Shown one piece after another: positions 5,359 through 27,545 of a DNA stretch of 32,693 nucleotides; the stretch's first letter is position 1; each line of letters starts with the position of its first letter. Made by a program: the position numbers and the translations under genes. Source of the stretch: Gemmatimonadaceae bacterium (GTDB lineage: Bacteria; Gemmatimonadota; Gemmatimonadetes; Gemmatimonadales; Gemmatimonadaceae); assembly GCA_025930755.1 (NCBI GenBank), contig JAICOJ010000028.1, positions 1-32,693 of the forward strand, written 5' to 3'. The notes under the pieces were generated by a model. It was not told the DNA's origin, searched no databases, and saw only the letters and a list, made by a program, of their open reading frames with translations.

Positions 5359-6638
5359 TCGTCGGACTTTCATTGATACTGCAGATCGCCGCGGCGGGAG
5401 ATTCGCTTCCGCGGGTGACGCTGGCCGACGTGCTCCGGCGATCGGCGCGTCTGGACCCGCAGTACGTCACCGCGCGCGGCGAGGTGGACAATGCCGTGTG
5501 GTCACGCCGGGCGGCGTGGTACGCGATCGTGACGCCGCAGGTGCGACTGGCGGGCGATCTCGCACAGTTTTCGACACCGACCTTCGTGCTCGGAGCCGAT
5601 CAGCCGCAAGGCCGCTCGGTCACGGCCCGGGCCGAGGCGTTCTACGAAGTGTTTAGCGGAGGGCGGAAGTTCGCGGAGCTGAGCGGCAGTCGCGCCCTGC
5701 TGACGGCGGCCGAGGCGCTCGAGGTTCGGGAGCGCTTCGATGCCGAGCTGCGGGCCGAGTCCGATTACTACCAGGTGCTCGCTGACCAGGAGCTGACCCG
5801 AGTCGCTGGGGAGCGGGTGCGCCGGGCGCGCGAACAACTGGGGGTGGCGCGCGCGCGTGTGATTTCCGGTGCGGCCGTCTCGACCGATTCATTACAGCTG
5901 CTGCTCGAGCTCAACCGCGCGCGGGTAGCGGAGTTGCGGCAGGTCGCCGCGCTCCGTGTCGCACGTCTGCAGCTCGGCCGCCGGATCGGGATGGACGGCC
6001 CGGTGGACGCCACCCCGCTCGGGGATGCGCGGGCTCCCGAGCTCACCATTTCCCTGGGGGACGCGGTCGCCCAGGCAGCGCAGTCCGGCCCCACCGCCGT
6101 GGCGGCGCGCGCGGCGGAAGACGCCGCGGAGGCTCTGGTCAAGGCGCAGCGAGGATCGTATCTTCCCAACCTGACGTTAGGCGCGACCACCGCGACCTAC
6201 GACACACGTTTCTTTCCTGACGCGACCTCGCGCACTTCGCTCATCTTTTCGGCGACACTGCCGATCTGGAACGGCGGACAGCGCGAAGTCCTCATGTCGC
6301 AGGCGCGCGTGACGCGTGAGATCGCTCGCGCGACGCGCCTCGATGCGGAGCGTGCGGTCGCACGTGACGTCACCGAAACGTACGAAGGCTACACCACCGC
6401 GCGCGCGACGACGCAGCTCGCGGAGGAGGCGGTTCTGGTCGCCCGGGAGAACTACCGCGTGCAGGACACGCGATATCGCGCGGGTGCGACGACCATCCTC
6501 GACCTCATCGAGGCGCAGATTCGCCTGACGGAGGCGGAAGCGGAGTTCGTGCAGTCACGGTATGCGACCCGGTTGGCGCTGGGGCGGTTCGAGGCGCAGC
6601 TGGGCAGACGGCTCTTCAACGATGGGGCGCGACAGTGA
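5355..6638 (+). CDS. TolC-family outer-membrane efflux channel
   Basis: The 427-residue protein is the outer-membrane duct of the tripartite pump. It has a short signal-like start (MIVGLSLILQIAAAG), then two similar halves of long Ala/Arg/Glu-rich helices (about 25-215 and 225-420), as in OEP/TolC proteins. LPNLTLGA near 275 and ATTILDLIEAQIRLTEAE near the end are typical of the family. The GTG start overlaps the pump's TGA (GTGA), so translation is probably coupled. The alternative is a later start, but no good ATG lies near the signal sequence. No lipobox Cys is present. Confidence 0.92.
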   Translation: MIVGLSLILQIAAAGDSLPRVTLADVLRRSARLDPQYVTARGEVDNAVWSRRAAWYAIVTPQVRLAGDLAQFSTPTFVLGADQPQGRSVTARAEAFYEVFSGGRKFAELSGSRALLTAAEALEVRERFDAELRAESDYYQVLADQELTRVAGERVRRAREQLGVARARVISGAAVSTDSLQLLLELNRARVAELRQVAALRVARLQLGRRIGMDGPVDATPLGDARAPELTISLGDAVAQAAQSGPTAVAARAAEDAAEALVKAQRGSYLPNLTLGATTATYDTRFFPDATSRTSLIFSATLPIWNGGQREVLMSQARVTREIARATRLDAERAVARDVTETYEGYTTARATTQLAEEAVLVARENYRVQDTRYRAGATTILDLIEAQIRLTEAEAEFVQSRYATRLALGRFEAQLGRRLFNDGARQ

Positions 6639-7780
6639 GAACGGTATTGGGAGTGGCGCTCGCCGCGGTCGTGCTCGCCGCGTGCGGTGGCGGGGAGGAG
6701 GCGCAGTCGGCGCAGACGGGCGCGGCAATGGAAACGGCGAACGGCGAGAGCGCCGGAGCGGATAGTAGCGACAAAGGCGCGGAGGGCGCGGGGGGCGCTG
6801 AAGGCGCTGGCGGCCCGCCCGCGGGCGGCATGCCCCCGATGCCCGTCGAGGTGGCGGTGGCGAAAAGCGAAACGGTCATCGACGAGATTCAGGCGACGGG
6901 AGCGGTCGAGGCGGTGCAGAGCATTGAGCTGCGTCCGGAGGCCGAAGGCCGCCTCGTGCAGATCTACGTGCGCGAAGGGAGCGTCGTCGGGCGCGGCGCG
7001 CCGCTGTTCAAGATCGATGACCAGGCCCTGCGGGCGCAGGTCGCTCGTGCCGAGGCCGAGCGTGATCTCGCGCAGCAGGCGTTGACGCGAACACGCCAGC
7101 TGCTGCAACAGAACGCGACGAGCGCCAGCGAGCTGGAGCGTGCGGAGGCGACGGCGCGGAGCACGCAGGCATCGCTCGATCTCCTCCAGCTTTCCCTGAC
7201 ACGCACGACGGTGCGAGCCCCCTTCGGCGGCGTCGCCGGCCGACGGCTCGTGTCGTTAGGCGATTACGTGACGCCGCAACGGCCGCTCATCTCGCTTCAG
7301 ACCTTCGATCCGCAGCGGGCGGTGTTCCAGGTTCCCGAACGCTTCGCGGACCGTGTGCGCAACGGCCAGCGCGTGCAGTTCAACGTCGCCGCGCTGCCCG
7401 GCAAGACGTTCACCGGCGTGGTGGACTTCGTCGACCCGGTGGTGCAGCTGCCCGGCCGCACCGTGCTGGTGAAGGCGAGTGTGCCCAATCCGCGCCGCGA
7501 GCTGCAGGCGGGTATGTTCATCGAGGCGAGCCTGGCGACGGCGACTCGGCCTAACGCGGTGGTGGTTCCCGAGGATGCCGTGCTGACCTCGCTCAACCAG
7601 CGCGTGACGTGGGTCGTGCTGCCCGATAACAAGGTGGACCGGCGTGAGGTCACGATCGGCGTCCGCCGGTCGGGCTTCGTCGAGATCACCGAGGGCGTGA
7701 AAGCGGGCGAGAAGGTGGTCGTCGGTGGCGCGGAGCGGTTGCAGCCGGGCGCGCCCGTGATGCCGGTCGAAAGGAAATAG
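6635..7780 (+). CDS. Efflux RND transporter periplasmic adaptor (membrane-fusion lipoprotein)
   Basis: The 381-residue adaptor joins the inner-membrane pump to the outer channel. Its signal peptide ends in a lipobox (VVLAAC), so it should be lipid-anchored at Cys17. A low-complexity Gly/Ala/Glu stretch (about 20-70) leads to the lipoyl half-motif (EAEGRLVQIYVREGSVVGRG), a coiled-coil hairpin (about 128-185), the second lipoyl half (VRAPFGGVAGRRLVSLGD), and beta-barrel and membrane-proximal domains. The GTG start overlaps the channel gene's TGA, repeating the GTGA arrangement at 5355. In most such operons the adaptor comes first; here it is last. Confidence 0.93.
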   Translation: MRTVLGVALAAVVLAACGGGEEAQSAQTGAAMETANGESAGADSSDKGAEGAGGAEGAGGPPAGGMPPMPVEVAVAKSETVIDEIQATGAVEAVQSIELRPEAEGRLVQIYVREGSVVGRGAPLFKIDDQALRAQVARAEAERDLAQQALTRTRQLLQQNATSASELERAEATARSTQASLDLLQLSLTRTTVRAPFGGVAGRRLVSLGDYVTPQRPLISLQTFDPQRAVFQVPERFADRVRNGQRVQFNVAALPGKTFTGVVDFVDPVVQLPGRTVLVKASVPNPRRELQAGMFIEASLATATRPNAVVVPEDAVLTSLNQRVTWVVLPDNKVDRREVTIGVRRSGFVEITEGVKAGEKVVVGGAERLQPGAPVMPVERK

Positions 7781-7801: not shown

Positions 7802-7896
7802 GGCATAACCACAGAGGCACGGAGGACACGAGAACGGCGAACCGCGGCACCAGCAGTTCGCCGTTCTCGTGTCCTCCGTGCCTCTGTGGTTATGCC
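7802..7896. repeat. Perfect 41-bp inverted repeat with 13-nt loop (nonamer CAGAGG family)
   Basis: Positions 7802-7842 and 7856-7896 are exact reverse complements around a 13-nt spacer. Inside each arm are degenerate 9-nt units (ACAGAGGCA, CGGAGGACA, CGAGAACGG). The element begins 21 nt after the efflux operon's stop and could end that transcript, but the stem is far longer than a usual terminator and has no U-tract. The segment TGCCTCTGTGGTTA recurs at 27532-27545. Confidence 0.95.
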
Positions 7897-8003: not shown

Positions 8004-10007
8004 ATGCACGTTCTTCCGTTCGCACTCCTCCTGCTCGCTCAGCAGGGGGCGCAGGGGGCACCGCAGACTGCGCAGCCGAGCCCCATTTCCCGGATAGTCA
8101 TCGCCCCATCGACGCGCACGGTGCGCGCGGGCGATACCGTGCGGTTCACGGCGCAGGCGTACGACGCGAGTGGGGCGGTGCTTCAGAACGTCAGCGTCCG
8201 CTTCGGAGGCGGCGGCTCGGGCGCCATCGACTCGACGGGGACCGTCATCGCGAGCGCCATCGGCAAAATGCCGATCGTCGCGGTGGCGACGCTGCCCGGA
8301 GCGAAGCCGTTCGTCGAGCGCCGGGAGATCGAGATCATTCCTGCACCGGCGTCGCGCGTCGACATTCGTGTCGCACCGACGAAGCTCGTCGTCGGCCAGC
8401 AGGCACGCGTCGAGGCCGTGGGGTACTCCCCGGCCAATGATCGCGCGATCGAGCCCATTCAGTGGACGTCGAGCGCACCGGCGATCGTGCGCGCCGAGCA
8501 CGGGCTCGTCACGGCGGTTGCCGCGGGCCGTGCGACCCTGACGGCGACGGCCGGGACGGCGAAGGCGACGGTCACCGTGCACGTCGTGCCGAACACGATT
8601 ACGTCGCTGACGATCGCGCCGGCGCGTCCCAAGGTCCGCACCGGTGACGTGGTCACGTTCACGGCACGCGCCCGGTCGTCGTCAGGCGACGTCACCGGTC
8701 TCACGCCGACCTGGGCGATGCAGGGCAACGGCGTCATCGACGCCGAGGGCGTCTTCGTCGCGTACGAGCCCGGCCCGGTCGTCGTGACGGCGACGTTAGG
8801 CAACCGCTCCGCGTCCACGATCGTCGAGGTCGAGGAGCGCGCCATTCGCCGTCCGGTCTCGATCGTCGGGCGTCTCCCGCGCACCGAGTTCACGACGGCG
8901 GAAGTCTGGGTGCACCCGAACGGGAAGGTCGCCTACCTCGGCACGCACGGGGGCGGCGATCGCGTGTACACGATCGACATCTCGAATCCGGCCACGCCGA
9001 CGGTCGTCGACTCGCTGGTGCTGAACACGCGGCTGGTGAACGACGTCATGACGGACAAGGCGGGCACGGTGCTCGTGATGACGCGTGAGGGGGCGGCGGA
9101 TCGCAAGAACGGGATCGTGATCGCGTCGCTCGAGGATCCGCTGCGTCCCAAGGTCATCTCGGAGTTCACCGAGGGGGTGACGGCCGGCGTGCACTCGGCG
9201 TTCGTCTATACGCAGCCGAAGCATGGGACGCACATCTATCTCACGAACGACGGCACCGGTGCCGTGCACGTCATCGACATCAACGATCCGAGGAATCCCA
9301 GGGAAGTCGCCCAGTGGCGGACGACGAACCGTCCCGATGCCGGGCGCTATGTCCATGACATCGACGTGCAGGATGGCCTGCTCTACGCGAGCTATTGGGA
9401 TGACGGACTCGTGATCCTCGACGTGGGGAAGGGGATCAAGGGAGGCTCGCCCGCGAAGCCGACGATCGTGACGCAGTTCAAGTACAATCTCGATTCGCTG
9501 TATCGCCAGGTGGAGGCGGAATCGGGACCGGGGTTCACGCGTGGAACGCACACGGCGTGGCGGCACAAGAATTACGTCTTCATCGCCGACGAGGTCTACC
9601 GCGCGAGCCCGGTGAAAGGCGCGAAGGACGAGGCCGCCGATCGCATGTACGGCACGTTGCAGGTGATCGACGTCAGCGACATCGAGCAGCCGAAGTCGGT
9701 CGCGTGGTACACGCCGGAGAACGGCGGGGTGCATAACGTGTGGGTCGCGGGCGACACGCTCTACATGGGCGCGTACGACGGCGGCTTCCGCGTGTTCGAC
9801 ATTGCGGGGGAGCTCAAGGGCGACCTCCGCGCACAGGGCCGCGAGATCGCGTTCGTGAGCACCGCCGACATGCAGGGCAAGATTCAGAACCAGGCGATGA
9901 CCTGGGGCGTGGTCGTGAATCCGGCCGACGGGCTCGCCTACGTGAACGATTTCTACAACGGGCTCTGGATCGTGCGGGTCGAGCCCAAGGCGCCACCGGT
10001 GCCTTGA
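8004..10007 (+). CDS. Secreted protein with three Ig-like (BIG2) domains and an LVIVD-repeat propeller
   Basis: The 667-residue protein has a short signal-like start (MHVLPFALLLLAQQ). Three bacterial Ig-like domains follow (about 28-120, 121-195 and 198-275), each opening with a strand such as ISRIVIAPS or ITSLTIAPA and containing a GxVT/GTVI-type turn. From about 285 to 660 there are at least five LVIVD-type blades, including VYTIDISNPATPTVVDSL, VHVIDINDPRNPREVAQW and LQVIDVSDIEQPKSVAWY, which suggest a beta-propeller. It is likely extracellular or cell-surface; ligand and catalytic role are unknown. The gene stands alone between two repeat elements. The ATG is chosen because the signal follows at once. 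Confidence 0.85.
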   Translation: MHVLPFALLLLAQQGAQGAPQTAQPSPISRIVIAPSTRTVRAGDTVRFTAQAYDASGAVLQNVSVRFGGGGSGAIDSTGTVIASAIGKMPIVAVATLPGAKPFVERREIEIIPAPASRVDIRVAPTKLVVGQQARVEAVGYSPANDRAIEPIQWTSSAPAIVRAEHGLVTAVAAGRATLTATAGTAKATVTVHVVPNTITSLTIAPARPKVRTGDVVTFTARARSSSGDVTGLTPTWAMQGNGVIDAEGVFVAYEPGPVVVTATLGNRSASTIVEVEERAIRRPVSIVGRLPRTEFTTAEVWVHPNGKVAYLGTHGGGDRVYTIDISNPATPTVVDSLVLNTRLVNDVMTDKAGTVLVMTREGAADRKNGIVIASLEDPLRPKVISEFTEGVTAGVHSAFVYTQPKHGTHIYLTNDGTGAVHVIDINDPRNPREVAQWRTTNRPDAGRYVHDIDVQDGLLYASYWDDGLVILDVGKGIKGGSPAKPTIVTQFKYNLDSLYRQVEAESGPGFTRGTHTAWRHKNYVFIADEVYRASPVKGAKDEAADRMYGTLQVIDVSDIEQPKSVAWYTPENGGVHNVWVAGDTLYMGAYDGGFRVFDIAGELKGDLRAQGREIAFVSTADMQGKIQNQAMTWGVVVNPADGLAYVNDFYNGLWIVRVEPKAPPVP

Positions 10008-11112: not shown

Positions 11113-11266
11113 AAGGAACGAGGAACGAGGAAGTGACCGAACGAGGAACTGACCAACCGAGGGACGAGGAACGAGGGAGAGGCTCTCCAGGCTCGCGCGC
11201 ACCGATGCGTGGCTGGCCACTTCCTCGTTCCTCGTTCGGTCAGTTCCTCGTTCTCGTTCGTCGCTG
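11113..11266. repeat. Inverted heptamer arrays, GAGGAAC family
   Basis: Units such as AGGAACG begin one base after the hydrolase stop. The stretch at 11117-11135 pairs perfectly over 19 bp with 11218-11236; further degenerate units extend both arms. The element separates two convergent genes and supplies the last codons (ending RTRTRN) of the minus-strand gene. The same family is at 14514-14534, 17437-17529 and 21558-21633. Confidence 0.85.
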
Positions 11267-11968
11267 ATTGGCGACGATCGCCTTCCACCGAGCGGCGCGC
11301 TCTCGAGGTGACAGGGCCAGCGCCTCATCCCACGCCCGGGGGTACGGTCCGCGGCGCCGCTTCTCGACGGCGACTTGCGCGTCGGCGAACTCCTGTCCGT
11401 ACAGCGACACCCACACGTCGTACAGCCACAGGAACAGCGGGCCGTGCTCCTCGTCGGTCCGGCGAAAGAGCGGTGACTGGAGGCGGTGTCCGAGCTCGTG
11501 GATGAGCGTCGCGCGCTTGGTGTCGATGGGATAGCTCGCGCGCAGGCGCATCGGCGTGTCGCCAACGCCTGACGAGCTCACGCCCTCGAACACGATGGCC
11601 GTGATCGCCGTGTCGGAAAAGGTGAGTCCCGAGACGTCCTGCATCGTGCGCGCAATGCGGGCGGCGTCAGCGGCCCAGATGCGCTCGTATTCGCCGACGG
11701 CGGCCGCGAAGGTCTCCGATGCAGGAACGAACTCGAGGCGGGGGACACGGAGAGGCGCGCCTGGAGAGGTTAGTGGCGCGTTCGAGCTGCAGGCTCCGAC
11801 GAAAAACAAAACTGCGAGCTGCGAACTGCGAGCTGCGAACTGCGAGCTGCGAACTGCGAACTGCGAACTGCGAATGAACCACCGGCGCGTCCCACGCGAC
11901 GAATGATTTCCCTTCGCAGTTCGCAGCTCGCAGTTCGCAGCTCGCAGTAGGCAGTTCGTAGCTCTCAC
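11240..11968 (-). CDS. Putative lipoprotein with HELGH zinc-protease motif; 5' end built from repeats
   Basis: The conserved part contains ATLIHELGHRLQSPL, an HExxH zinc motif, with DEEHGPLFLWLYDVW following, where a third ligand could lie. A lipobox-like LFFVGAC comes shortly before the mature region, so the product is probably a periplasmic, lipid-anchored metal-dependent protein of unknown family. The start is unresolved. The only in-frame GTG directly follows the stop of the upstream gene (11969), and the roughly 60 codons up to the Cys are translated heptamer array (SSQFAVR and similar). That leader is too long for a normal lipoprotein signal. Both ends of the gene run into repeats. It may be intact with an unusual start, or have had its original 5' end replaced. 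Confidence 0.6.
   Translation of the reverse strand: MRATNCLLRAANCELRTAKGNHSSRGTRRWFIRSSQFAVRSSQFAARSSQLAVLFFVGACSSNAPLTSPGAPLRVPRLEFVPASETFAAAVGEYERIWAADAARIARTMQDVSGLTFSDTAITAIVFEGVSSSGVGDTPMRLRASYPIDTKRATLIHELGHRLQSPLFRRTDEEHGPLFLWLYDVWVSLYGQEFADAQVAVEKRRRGPYPRAWDEALALSPRERAARWKAIVANQRRTRTRN
11811..11961. repeat. Inverted heptamer arrays, GTTCGCA/GCTCGCA family
   Basis: Nine unbroken 7-nt units (ACTGCGA alternating with GCTGCGA) span 11811-11873. Seven inverted units (TTCGCAG, CTCGCAG and two decayed copies) span 11913-11961. The arms can pair in several registers because every unit is nearly the same. In transcript order the array begins seven bases after the stop of the cupredoxin-like gene and runs into the next frame. 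The related element at 2130-2236 shares the GTTCGCA unit. Confidence 0.92.
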
Positions 11969-12838: not shown

Positions 12839-12924
12839 GGTTGGGTCTAAGGGTTGTTGAGTGGGAAACCGGTGGTTCGACATCATTACGGAGGAGGGTT
12901 TCAGGCGGAAAGGTGGGCAGGCTC

Positions 12925-13020
12925 GTCGAGGATGTCGAGGTGATCGAGGTGCAGTCGTTCGTGTGACCGCCGTCTCCTCGATCACCTTGACGACCTCGAC
13001 ACCCTCGACGCCCTCGCCCT
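12925..13020. repeat. Inverted nonamer arrays, GTCGAGGTG family, in a divergent intergenic region
   Basis: Three units (GTCGAGGAT, GTCGAGGTG, ATCGAGGTG; 12925-12951) face five inverted units (CCTCGATCA to CCTCGCCCT; 12976-13020). GGTGATCGAGG at 12939-12949 pairs perfectly with 12976-12986. It lies between the divergent starts at 12838 and 13072, so both promoters must lie in or around it. Confidence 0.87.
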
Positions 13021-13323: not shown

Positions 13324-13328
13324 GAGCA

Positions 13329-13420
13329 GGGTCCTCGGGGTCCTCGGGGTCCTCCGGGTCCTCAGGGTGCGAACCCCTGAGCGCCTCGCACCCTGAGGAC
13401 CCTGAGGACCCTGAGGACCC
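13329..13420. repeat. Inverted nonamer arrays, GGGTCCTCG family, between convergent genes
   Basis: Four GGGTCCTCx units (13329-13364) face three CCCTGAGGA units (13391-13417). Positions 13356-13372 pair perfectly over 17 bp with 13386-13402, and the outer units extend the stem. It starts five bases after one stop codon and touches the other gene's stop at 13421, so it probably ends transcription from both sides. Confidence 0.9.
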
Positions 13421-14464
13421 TTACTGATACGGCCTCAGATTCCACTCCAGGAACGCCCACACCCGGTTCCAGGAGTCGCGCTGCTCCGGCGTGTCATCAC
13501 GCTCGAGCGTCTCCCGATTCACCCGCCGCGAAAAGCTGTGGCCGCCCGGCGGATCGACGTAGACTTTCGTCTCTGCCAGCTCGGGCTTCTTCGCGCGTAA
13601 GGCGCTGATGATCTGCTCCCCCTCGACGAAGTTGACGTCATCGTCGTTGGTCGCCACGTGCACGAGGAGCGGTACGGTCAGCTTGTCGACGTGATAGAGC
13701 GGGGACCGCTCGACGTAAATCTCCCGCTTCTCGAAGGGCAGTCCGCCGATCCGCCGCTGCGTCGCGAAGCTGCGCTGATAGTTGGGACCCTTGTAGGAAA
13801 GCCGGAAGATCAGGTTCGTCACCGGTACGATCGCGACGCCCGCCTTGAACGGATGCGAGTCGCGGAAGAGCAGGAGATTCGTGATGTACCCGCCATGGCT
13901 CCACCCCATGATGCCGATGCGGGCCGGGTCGACATGCGGCAGGCGCTTCAGGTAGTCGACCGCCGTCAGCACGTCGTCGAGCTCGTACCCGCCATAGTCG
14001 ATCGCGTTGTGGAAGTCGCGACCGTACCCCGTGCTTCCACGGTACTCCGGCGCGACCACGACGTAGCCGCGTTCCACCGCCTCGCGCACGAATGGCCAGT
14101 ACATCTCCGACCAGCTTCCGTGCACGCCGCCGTGCACCCATATCAGCGCCGCGTGCCGGCGCGGACCGCGCTTGTTGACCGGCTGAAAGACGTACGCTGG
14201 AATGTCCATGTCGCCGACGCTACTGCGGTACGTGACCTTTTGATAATCGACGACACCCCGCGTGCGCGCGCGATAGATGCTGTCGGTGCGTGCCTTGGCA
14301 GCCATGTCGCGCGCGAAGTCGCGCGGCGGGTGGTCCTCCCATTTGGCGCTGACATACAGTGATTCGGCGCGAGTCGTGGGACGCGCTCGCTGCCCGTCCT
14401 GCGCGGGTGCGATGTTGACGCAGGAGATGAGAACGGCCGTGCCAAGCAGGAATTGGATCCGCAT
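13421..14464 (-). CDS. Secreted alpha/beta hydrolase, prolyl oligopeptidase (S9)-like
   Basis: From ATG 14464 the 347-residue product begins with a signal peptide (MRIQFLLGTAVLISCVNIAPAQ). The nucleophile elbow is GWSHGG (Ser about 189). An Asp in VATNDDDVNFVEG and a His in PPGGHSF complete a plausible triad. HAALIWVHGGVHGSW is the oxyanion strand of the fold. The protein is shorter than full prolyl oligopeptidases and lacks their N-terminal propeller, so it is best called an S9-type peptidase or esterase with unknown substrate. The frame extends 25 codons upstream into repeats (14478-14534) with no signal, so the later ATG was preferred. Confidence 0.88.
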   Translation of the reverse strand: MRIQFLLGTAVLISCVNIAPAQDGQRARPTTRAESLYVSAKWEDHPPRDFARDMAAKARTDSIYRARTRGVVDYQKVTYRSSVGDMDIPAYVFQPVNKRGPRRHAALIWVHGGVHGSWSEMYWPFVREAVERGYVVVAPEYRGSTGYGRDFHNAIDYGGYELDDVLTAVDYLKRLPHVDPARIGIMGWSHGGYITNLLLFRDSHPFKAGVAIVPVTNLIFRLSYKGPNYQRSFATQRRIGGLPFEKREIYVERSPLYHVDKLTVPLLVHVATNDDDVNFVEGEQIISALRAKKPELAETKVYVDPPGGHSFSRRVNRETLERDDTPEQRDSWNRVWAFLEWNLRPYQ

Positions 14465-17436: not shown

Positions 17437-17529
17437 GAAGAACGAGGAACGAGGAACGAGGAAGCGCCAGGAGAGCTCCCGTCGCGCTTCCTCGCTCCTC
17501 GTTCCTCGTTCCTCGTTCTTCGTTCTTCG
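17437..17529. repeat. Inverted heptamer arrays, GAGGAAC family, between convergent genes
   Basis: The left arm starts on the base after the M20 stop codon. Positions 17438-17460 pair perfectly over 23 bp with 17498-17520. The right arm has six units (17488-17529) against four on the left, so one arm has gained or lost units. It ends nine bases before the neighbouring gene's stop and probably serves both genes as a terminator. Confidence 0.92.
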
Positions 17530-19392: not shown

Positions 19393-19481
19393 CGCGGAGA
19401 ACGCGGAGAGCGCAGAGGACTGCACCCGCGGGAGTCGTTGTCGAAAGGCGCTGTGGTTGACGCTTCTCTGCGCTCTCTGCG
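19393..19481. repeat. Inverted nonamer arrays, CGCGGAGAA family
   Basis: CGCGGAGAA, CGCGGAGAG and CGCAGAGGA (19393-19419) face TTCTCTGCG and CTCTCTGCG (19464-19481); 19402-19419 pairs with 19464-19481 over 16 of 18 bases. It lies between convergent genes (stops at 19307 and 19634). The remainder of this 326-nt gap, 19308-19392 and 19482-19633, holds no gene I can support; a run of six T is at 19503-19508. Confidence 0.75.
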
Positions 19482-20252: not shown

Positions 20253-20337
20253 CCAGGCAGTCCAGGTCATCCAGGATGTCGAGGTGATCAAGGCAGGGTC
20301 ACCTGGATCACCTCGACGACCTCGACAACCTTGCCAA
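20253..20337. repeat. Inverted nonamer arrays, CCAGG/GTCGAGGTG family, in a divergent intergenic region
   Basis: Five 9-nt units (CCAGGCAGT, CCAGGTCAT, CCAGGATGT, CGAGGTGAT, CAAGGCAGG; 20253-20297) face four inverted ones (CCTGGATCA, CCTCGACGA, CCTCGACAA, CCTTGCCAA; 20302-20337). GTCGAGGTGATC at 20278-20289 pairs perfectly with 20306-20317. The right arm stops one base short of the next ATG, so it takes up the place of that gene's ribosome-binding site. Confidence 0.87.
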
Positions 20338-20338
20338 C

Positions 20339-21559
20339 ATGATTCTTCCCAGTGTCGGGCTTCTCGCTCTCATCCTCGCCGCCCAGCAAGTGCCGCCTCT
20401 TCCCGCGGCCCCTGTGCGCCCGGGTGTGGAGCAGTTTCTTGCTGACGTTCCCGCGCCCCTCCGTGGCAAGCGCGTGGGACTCATCACGAATCACACCGGC
20501 GTCGACGCGCGGGGCGTCAGCATCATCGACCGCCTCTTCGCGTCCCCGGATGTGAAGCTCGTCGCCCTCTTCGCTCCCGAGCACGGAATCCGTGGCACCG
20601 CCGCCGACGGCGCGAAGATCCCGTCAGGCGTCGATCGAAACACGGGCCTGCCGATCTTCTCCCTCTACGGCGACGTGCGCAGGCCGACCGCACGAATGCT
20701 CGCCAACGTCGATGCCCTCCTGTTCGACATGCAGGACGTCGGCGCTCGGCCCTACACGTACATCTCGACGATGGGGTTGGCGATGCGTGCGGCGAAGGAG
20801 AAGGGAATCCCGTTCATCGTGCTCGATCGGCCCAATCCCATCGGCGGGCACATCGTCGAAGGCGGCATTCTCGATACCGCATTCCGCTCGTTTACGGGCA
20901 TGTATCCGATCGCCCTGCGCCACGGCATGACGATCGGCGAGCTGGCGCGGATGTTCAATGATCGGTTTCGCATTGGCGCCGAGCTCGTTGTCGTGCCGAT
21001 GCTCGGCTGGAAGCGCGAGATGTGGTTCGATGAGACGGGACTGCCCTGGGTGAATCCCTCCCCGAACATTCGCCGCCTGGAGACGGCGATTCATTATCCT
21101 GGCACCGTGTTCATCGAGGCGACGAACCTGTCGGAAGCGCGAGGAACCGATCGCCCGCTGGAGCAGGCAGGCGCGCCCTGGCTCCGAGCGCGCGAGGTCG
21201 CCGACTCCATGAATGCGATGGCCCTTCCCGGCGTTCGCTTCGAGGCCACTCGCTTCATGTCGGTGCGAGGCACGGCGAAGTACCCCAACGCCTCCATCCC
21301 GGCCATTCGGTTCGTCATGACCGATCGCGAGGTCTACCGGCCGGTGCGTACCGTACTGCTCTTCGTCGACCTCGTGAGGCGCATGCATCCGGGCAAGTTT
21401 CGATGGCAGGAACGCGGCGCCGGCGTCGATCGCCTGGCGGGCACCGGCGCGCTTCGGAAGGCGATCGCCGAGGGCCGGTTGAATCAGGTGCTCGCCGACT
21501 GGGAGGCGCAGTCCAGAGAGTTTCTTTCGATACGGCGAGAATATCTGTTGTACGAGTAG
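20339..21559 (+). CDS. namZ: DUF1343/NamZ-family exo-beta-N-acetylmuramidase
   Basis: The 406-residue product has a signal peptide (MILPSVGLLALILAAQ) and then the conserved NamZ (YbbC, GH171) blocks: LITNHTGVD, FAPEHGIRG, DMQDVGARPYTYISTM, LDRPNPIGG, PWVNPSPNIR and EATNLSEARGTDRP. The characterised Bacillus member removes terminal N-acetylmuramic acid from wall fragments, so this is probably a wall-recycling enzyme in the periplasm. Length and motif order agree with full-length members. No ribosome-binding site is visible before the ATG, because the nonamer array ends there. The symbol is by family similarity. Confidence 0.9.
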   Translation: MILPSVGLLALILAAQQVPPLPAAPVRPGVEQFLADVPAPLRGKRVGLITNHTGVDARGVSIIDRLFASPDVKLVALFAPEHGIRGTAADGAKIPSGVDRNTGLPIFSLYGDVRRPTARMLANVDALLFDMQDVGARPYTYISTMGLAMRAAKEKGIPFIVLDRPNPIGGHIVEGGILDTAFRSFTGMYPIALRHGMTIGELARMFNDRFRIGAELVVVPMLGWKREMWFDETGLPWVNPSPNIRRLETAIHYPGTVFIEATNLSEARGTDRPLEQAGAPWLRAREVADSMNAMALPGVRFEATRFMSVRGTAKYPNASIPAIRFVMTDREVYRPVRTVLLFVDLVRRMHPGKFRWQERGAGVDRLAGTGALRKAIAEGRLNQVLADWEAQSREFLSIRREYLLYE

Positions 21560-21633
21560 GAACGAGGAACGAGGACGTTGAGCCGTCACGGACTGACCGA
21601 TCAGCTTCCTCGTTCCTCATTCCTCGTTCCTAC
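21558..21633. repeat. Inverted heptamer arrays, GAGGAAC family
   Basis: The left arm begins on the stop codon of the muramidase gene (TAG 21557-21559). Positions 21558-21575 pair with 21607-21624 at 17 of 18 bases, and one more TTCCTCG and a TTCCTAC unit follow to 21633. It probably separates the muramidase transcript from the DUF5916 gene at 21708. Confidence 0.87.
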
Positions 21634-21707
21634 TCGTCCTGTACGGTTTTGGTGAGTTGTGCCGGCCCCGGCTGGCCGACTTCACCCATATTTCCCACTT
21701 TGTACGG

Positions 21708-24062: not shown

Positions 24063-24190
24063 AGGGGTCAGGAATCAGGCATCATGGATCAGGGGGTGTC
24101 AGGGTGACGGTTTGAGGAGAACAGCACGCGCAACTCCTGAAACCTCTTCCCTGAAACCCCCTGATCCCTGAGTCCTGACTCCTGACCCCT
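24063..24190. repeat. Inverted heptamer arrays, GGxxTCA/TGAxxCC family
   Basis: GGGGTCA, GGAATCA, GGCATCA and TGGATCA begin four bases after the DUF5916 stop. Positions 24063-24092 match the reverse complement of 24161-24190 at 26 of 30 bases. The left arm is nearly the same as 1617-1644, with its units in a different order. The gap up to the kinase start at 24254 holds nothing else that I can name. Confidence 0.88.
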
Positions 24191-26717: not shown

Positions 26718-26790
26718 CTGCGTACTGCGGACTGCGTGCTGCGTACTTGCGCCTGTTTGGTTTTGGTACGCAGTACGCAGTGCGCAGTAC
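26718..26790. repeat. Inverted heptamer arrays, CTGCGTA family
   Basis: CTGCGTA, CTGCGGA, CTGCGTG and CTGCGTA (26718-26745) face GTACGCA, GTACGCA and GTGCGCA (26766-26786). Positions 26722-26746 pair with 26766-26790 at 23 of 25 bases. It starts 10 bases after the regulator's stop, so it may end the kinase-regulator transcript. Confidence 0.9.
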
Positions 26791-27476: not shown

Positions 27477-27545
27477 GACACAGATAAGGGCGAACGGCCG
27501 TAGTCGCTTTTCGCCCTTCTCTGTGTCTCTATGCCTCTGTGGTTA
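27477..27545. repeat. Inverted repeat with nonamer CAGAGG-family tail
   Basis: Positions 27477-27494 pair with 27510-27527 at 17 of 18 bases. To its right, TGCCTCTGTGGTTA (27532-27545) repeats a 14-base piece of the perfect palindrome at 7802-7896. It lies between convergent genes (stops at 27449 and 27570), where it could terminate both. Confidence 0.82.

Follow-up and report, generated by a model that had tools for sequence, protein, structure and literature searches.

Introduction

In Xanthomonas, convergent pairs of a GGGAATC heptamer repeat were described, 70 and 75 of them in two species (Rehm et al., 2015; PMC4692102). Stable stem-loops were found to be concentrated within about 50 bp past stop codons, and transcription termination or mRNA stabilisation was proposed as their role (Petrillo et al., 2006; PMC1590033). 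REPs are palindromes of 20-40 bp that carry a GTAG or CGTC tag and often have a RAYT (PMC3733652). In template switching, one arm of an inverted repeat serves as template for the other, which removes differences between the two, and the loop can become inverted (PMC8604942).

Here we analysed a stretch of 32,693 nucleotides from a Gemmatimonadaceae bacterium (hereafter the window), which contains a palindrome at 7802-7896. Judged by its sequence, this palindrome belongs to a family of hairpins dispersed over intergenic sites, the CACAGAG hairpins, and is the copy on the 3' flank of an efflux operon. The nearest described kinds are the paired heptamer arrays of Xanthomonas, 3'-end stem-loops and REPs, and the core itself is unmatched in Rfam and in the searchable open-access literature: Rfam at the gathering threshold gave no match in the window, the 14-16-mer core was not found in the searchable part of the open-access literature, and the CACAGAG word is absent from the RepRanger and GTAG/CGTC REP papers.

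Like the Xanthomonas pairs, CACAGAG hairpins lie between genes all over the genome and consist of short tandem units in inverted arrays capable of forming stem-loops, and the lower number of Xanthomonas pairs between divergent genes is a further likeness. However, the Xanthomonas unit is a different, G-rich word of 7 bp that is discussed as a quadruplex former, and the accessible part of that paper describes neither a family spanning many phyla nor copy-specific matching of arms (PMC4692102). The stem-loops of PMC1590033 resemble CACAGAG hairpins in their stop-proximal position, and some of them are repeat families; in contrast, the accessible text mentions neither tandem units nor the CACAGAG sequence, and Gemmatimonadota lie outside its coverage. 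REP/BIME elements and the GTAG/CGTC families are likewise short, multi-copy extragenic palindromes with a proposed role in termination and mRNA stability (PMC3733652; PMC2817692), whereas the CACAGAG stem is about 40 bp long, lacks the tagged foot of REPs and is abundant in several relatives that have no Y1 transposase. Homogenisation of inverted-repeat arms shares with our case the use of one arm as template for the other, but it was described for single inverted repeats, mainly in yeast genes (PMC8604942 and works cited there), and not for a dispersed bacterial family.

Results

The palindrome at 7802-7896 and the CACAGAG hairpins of the same genome

The preliminary description of the window had reported an inverted repeat with perfect 41-bp arms and a 13-nt spacer after the efflux operon. 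This holds: the arms matched at 41/41 positions, and the palindrome lies 21 bp past the stop codon of the last gene of this RND efflux operon (Table 1). When one mismatch was allowed, the stem grew to 44 bp with a 7-nt gap, and the predicted folding energy of the palindrome as RNA was -99.8 kcal/mol (z = -16 versus shuffled sequences). Perfect arms had been taken as its distinguishing trait, but other copies in the genome have arms matching at 43/43, 40/40, 40/40 and 39/39 positions, and the premise that such a palindrome should be rare or unstable was wrong here, where it belongs to a multi-copy family. The 14-base segment in common with 27532-27545 is real and is the end of a decayed second family copy (~27480-27545); it thus reflects family membership and poses no separate puzzle. 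The single copy at 7802-7896 is ordinary, and it is the family behind the palindrome that is unexpected.

Table 1. Features of the window around the palindrome, and spacers with hairpins of other words
Feature	Positions	Strand	Basis
5' arm of CACAGAG hairpin (GGCATAACCACAGAGGCACGGAGGACACGAGAACGGCGAAC)	7802..7842	+	arm matching
Loop, 13 nt, unconserved among copies	7843..7855	.	copy comparison
3' arm, perfect reverse complement of 5' arm	7856..7896	+	arm matching
HlyD/CusB-type membrane fusion protein, last gene of RND efflux operon	6635..7780	+	stop codon 7778-7780
Gene following the hairpin, Big_2/LVIVD-repeat protein; start codon 107 bp away	8004..10007	+	
Decayed family copy: 3' arm retained, 5' arm mostly gone; contains shared 14-mer	27480..27545	.	
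Spacers with other-word hairpins	11116-11253, 11811-11967, 12915-13019, 13328-13421, 17437-17528		
Spacers with other-word hairpins, continued	19393-19481, 20264-20331, 21552-21637, 24063-24190, 26722-26790		

The family core pattern (CCACAGAGNCACNGAG, one mismatch allowed) was searched over the 4.27-Mb genome. This yielded 83 matches, versus 1 with the reversed pattern, at 43 places, with both arms recognisable in 27; decayed and half copies were also seen. The arms consist of near-tandem 8-9-bp units with irregular spacing (CACAGAGG-CACRGAG...), and in some copies one side has extra units or lacks units. The consensus arm of 26 copies is approximately GCC..ACTGCAT.ACCACAGAGGCACAGAGG.CACAGAGRACGGC.AACTGC, followed by a variable loop and the mirror image. 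The family has arms of near-tandem units within the 6-9-bp range of Xanthomonas-like heptamer pairs, and it also has the terminal inverted repeats, the many copies and the lack of a gene of its own that are expected of a MITE. Hairpins with a score of at least 16 numbered 47 in a 401-kb sample of the genome versus 1 in Markov copies (three order-2 copies, each as long as the sample), and 6-9-bp periodicity exceeded the 95th percentile of shuffles in 35 of 42 strong non-coding hairpins of the sample.

Hairpins with tandem-unit arms of other words likewise end most of the remaining spacers in the window (GAACGAG, CTGCGAA, GTCGAGGTGAT, GGGTCCTC, CGCGGAGAA, TCAGGNN and CTGCGTA). The word CGCNGAG occurs at more than 300 places in Gemmatirosa (G017) and at about 80 in the genome studied here; this sister word probably represents another branch of the hairpin type to which CACAGAG belongs.

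Of the 43 copies, 13 are no more than about 100 bp away from the end of a contig, against an expectation of about 0.6 by our own arithmetic, which indicates that CACAGAG hairpins break the assembly. Contigs end inside CACAGAG hairpins far more often than by chance (e.g. C12:30, C39:51, C24:32621 and C266:36). The starts of C39 and C266 look like two halves of one hairpin and match neighbouring positions in the sister species (C67:15382 and 15532). Some stretches of the genome are 99.5-99.8% identical to the congener G001 while the remainder is about 80% identical, which suggests cross-contamination between two bins or very recent transfer.

Distribution across genomes and phyla

A covariance-model search gave matches in 13 of 41 relatives. 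Copy numbers were about 39 in the own genome and in G014, at least 46 in G017, which is placed in the same bacterial family, and zero in most other relatives; these values are below the raw match counts because a palindrome is matched on both strands. The exact two-arm form was found in 8 of 298 Gemmatimonadota. In a wider search, the two-arm pattern was present in at least 119 stretches from about 10 phyla by record titles; some of the listed genomes are bins from metagenomes and may be mixed. Acidobacteriota, Pseudomonadota, Myxococcota, Chloroflexota, Planctomycetota, Spirochaetota, Verrucomicrobiota, Nitrospirota, Bacteroidota and Gemmatimonadota were among the matches listed, as were the isolates Sorangium cellulosum, Spirosoma telluris, Roseateles caseinilyticus and Azospirillum brasilense. 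Core words per strand ranged from a few to about 300 per genome, with 100-300 in some Acidobacteriota, Leptospiraceae and Roseateles; one acidobacterium had about 300 per strand versus none with the reversed pattern. From the shared word and architecture, we infer that hairpins of the different phyla may share common descent.

The two-arm pattern was also seen in 31 stretches of IMG/VR viral contigs, which may be host DNA, with at least 4 copies on one contig. Plasmid records gave 2 weak matches, one of them in Gemmatirosa.

Position relative to genes and comparison with a sister species

Gene neighbours were called with a gene model whose training set comprised 695 kb from the own and sister genomes. 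Among codirectional copies in the own genome, 11 of 12 were closer to the upstream stop codon than to the downstream start (p = 0.006), and the family core often lay 24-31 bp past the stop (median, 28 bp). Where neighbours were called on both sides (24 copies), 8 copies were in convergent spacers and 4, some of them degenerate, in divergent spacers; with 4/24 copies there, the depletion of divergent spacers is weak for the CACAGAG family. All strong hairpins of the 401-kb sample, irrespective of word, behaved similarly: 23 of 26 codirectional ones were closer to the stop (p = 9e-5), and a strong hairpin was present in 39 of 159 spacers holding a 3' end versus 5 of 48 divergent spacers (p = 0.04).

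In Roseateles (Pseudomonadota), all 15 copies read share one orientation relative to the upstream gene, and in 12 of the 15 the upstream stop codon falls inside a 9-position window beside the hairpin. The Roseateles element is oriented and set in a stereotyped cassette with conserved flanks. In about half of these 15 copies, the element takes up the whole spacer between the stop codon upstream and a start codon about 51 bp further on, with conserved CATnTCAGTTGTC and TTCACTTCA ends. At one Roseateles locus both presence and absence of the element were seen, with absence confirmed in several species, and the flanks are too diverged to read a target duplication.

The sister species lacks the element at the orthologous site: this congener, G001, 82% identical at the locus, has a short GAGGGCTCCGAG hairpin instead. 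At orthologous spacers of the window, the hairpin words of the two species differ (GAACGAGG versus GAGGAATGAGGACTGAGG; CTGCGAA versus GGACTGCGGATTG; GGGTCCTCGG versus GAGGTGCTC), in a small sample of shared spacers (n = 24). Genome-wide word use diverges as well, with 89 versus 0 counts of CTGCGA[AG]CTGCGA and 0 versus 23 of AGACGTCAGG in the own and sister genomes, respectively. At the orthologous spacers of both species, hairpins cluster just past stop codons. Since the sister's orthologous spacers bear hairpins of unrelated words, selection for some hairpin after the stop is suggested; a hairpin seems to be wanted there, and its sequence seems to be replaceable.

Matching between the two arms

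Copies in the own genome differ from one another by about 20%, while the arms of each copy resemble one another more closely. Arm identity was 0.91 within a copy versus 0.81 between copies (permutation z = 10.6, exceeding all 20,000 permutations). At the variable position of unit 2 (A, G, C or T), the two arms agreed in every one of the 19 readable copies. Outside the own genome, copy-specific matching was weak (one acidobacterium, z = 3.4) or lacking (Roseateles, z = -1.9), and arm correction is thus lineage-specific rather than family-wide. Isolated mismatches of the CACAGAG family in three genomes comprised 4 G.U versus 12 A.C, a count for which the Roseateles strands were assigned with a poorer gene model; those of all hairpin families of the own genome and its sister comprised 30 G.U versus 21 A.C, which leans toward G.U and is not decisive.

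Since substitutions specific to a copy are found in both of its arms and G.U is not consistently in excess over A.C, we prefer arm copying: arm-to-arm correction by template switching probably explains the perfection of the arms better than base-by-base selection on RNA. The preliminary description had left open whether the palindrome was recent, corrected between its arms or under selection. Correction fits best and selection is suggested for some hairpin; recency is plausible, since the sister lacks the element.

Discussion

We consider it somewhat probable, from sequence comparisons, that the CACAGAG family is a 3'-end hairpin, either a terminator or an exonuclease block that works without a U-tract, which is spreading as a repeat. 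A 3'-end role is judged the most likely because of the position of the copies, their fixed orientation in Roseateles and the replacement by other hairpins in the sister. As in an intrinsic terminator, the element at 7802-7896 is a G+C-rich hairpin soon past a stop codon. A U-tract was not found directly after its stem, where AGCGCACCTC stands instead, nor after strong hairpins of the own genome (T fraction 0.19-0.35 at every position), and consensus U-tract terminators showed no enrichment over the window's first 20 kb (3 versus 8.2 in shuffles). The own genome encodes Rho and therefore has another way to terminate. Once transcribed, the hairpin would end or protect the 3' end of the operon, either as an intrinsic-like stop that needs no U-tract or by blocking 3' exonucleases, and between convergent genes it would work both ways. 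Copies would spread within genomes and rarely between them. The arms would stay identical because template switching or hairpin-templated repair uses one to rewrite the other, either as copies spread or afterwards.

The patchy distribution of the family would accord with a mobile repeat of the MITE or REP kind that is purely selfish and brings its host no benefit, with 3' flanks being simply the places of least harm or the target of its machinery. The exact two-arm form occurs in few Gemmatimonadota, copies range from 0 to at least 46 within one family, core words are abundant in some Acidobacteriota, Leptospiraceae and Roseateles genomes, decayed and half copies exist, and the oriented Roseateles copies have conserved flanks. 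Nevertheless, neither a clean insertion nor a target duplication is readable in Roseateles, whose orthologous site has a different spacer instead of an interrupted one, the search for a parent transposase, which covered Y1_Tnp, linked none to the hairpin, and the other hairpins at the sister's orthologous spacers suggest a demand for a hairpin. Pure selfishness is therefore possible but rather unlikely. Mobilisation as a REP element by a RAYT (Y1) transposase would accord with the shortness of this extragenic palindrome, with its many copies close to 3' ends and with the one Y1_Tnp gene of the own genome; however, the consensus of 26 copies has no GTAG or CGTC foot, and the stem alone is as long as or longer than a whole REP (about 40 bp versus 20-40 bp; PMC3733652). 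Y1_Tnp had no match in the element-rich relatives G014, G017 and G024, on which ground we rejected Y1/RAYT as the general mobiliser, and we give this origin very little credence.

Complementarity maintained solely by selection on RNA structure, base pair by base pair, would be in keeping with the element-specific compensatory differences among copies and with the strong folding. We regard it as improbable, since single mismatches are tolerable in a 40-bp stem and such selection predicts more G.U than A.C mismatches, which the two opposing counts do not consistently bear out. That the palindrome is an assembly artefact or arose by chance can practically be dismissed. The genome is a draft, and many copies lie near contig ends, where assemblers struggle; every copy, however, has its own sequence and its own flanks, and the Markov control yields almost no such hairpins. 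The family also occurs in named isolates, among them Gemmatirosa kalamazoonensis with its four-replicon assembly, and so it is not an assembly artefact. The hairpin family explains part of the fragmentation in such draft genomes.

To the 3'-end reading we add a broader proposal, which we hold tentatively and below even confidence: a single family of 3'-end hairpins may be spreading horizontally in about 10 phyla and, in several hosts that lack Y1, may attain hundreds of core words per genome, with arms re-symmetrised by copying in at least one lineage, and the 3' ends of the genus may carry a fast-changing, species-specific vocabulary of tandem-unit hairpins. Recognisable terminators are scarce in many bacteria that do not belong to the well-studied groups. 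If the proposal is true, a shared hairpin with fast turnover after the stop codon would show how such 3' ends arise and get replaced, and the family makes it testable whether arm-to-arm copying or selection keeps the arms paired.
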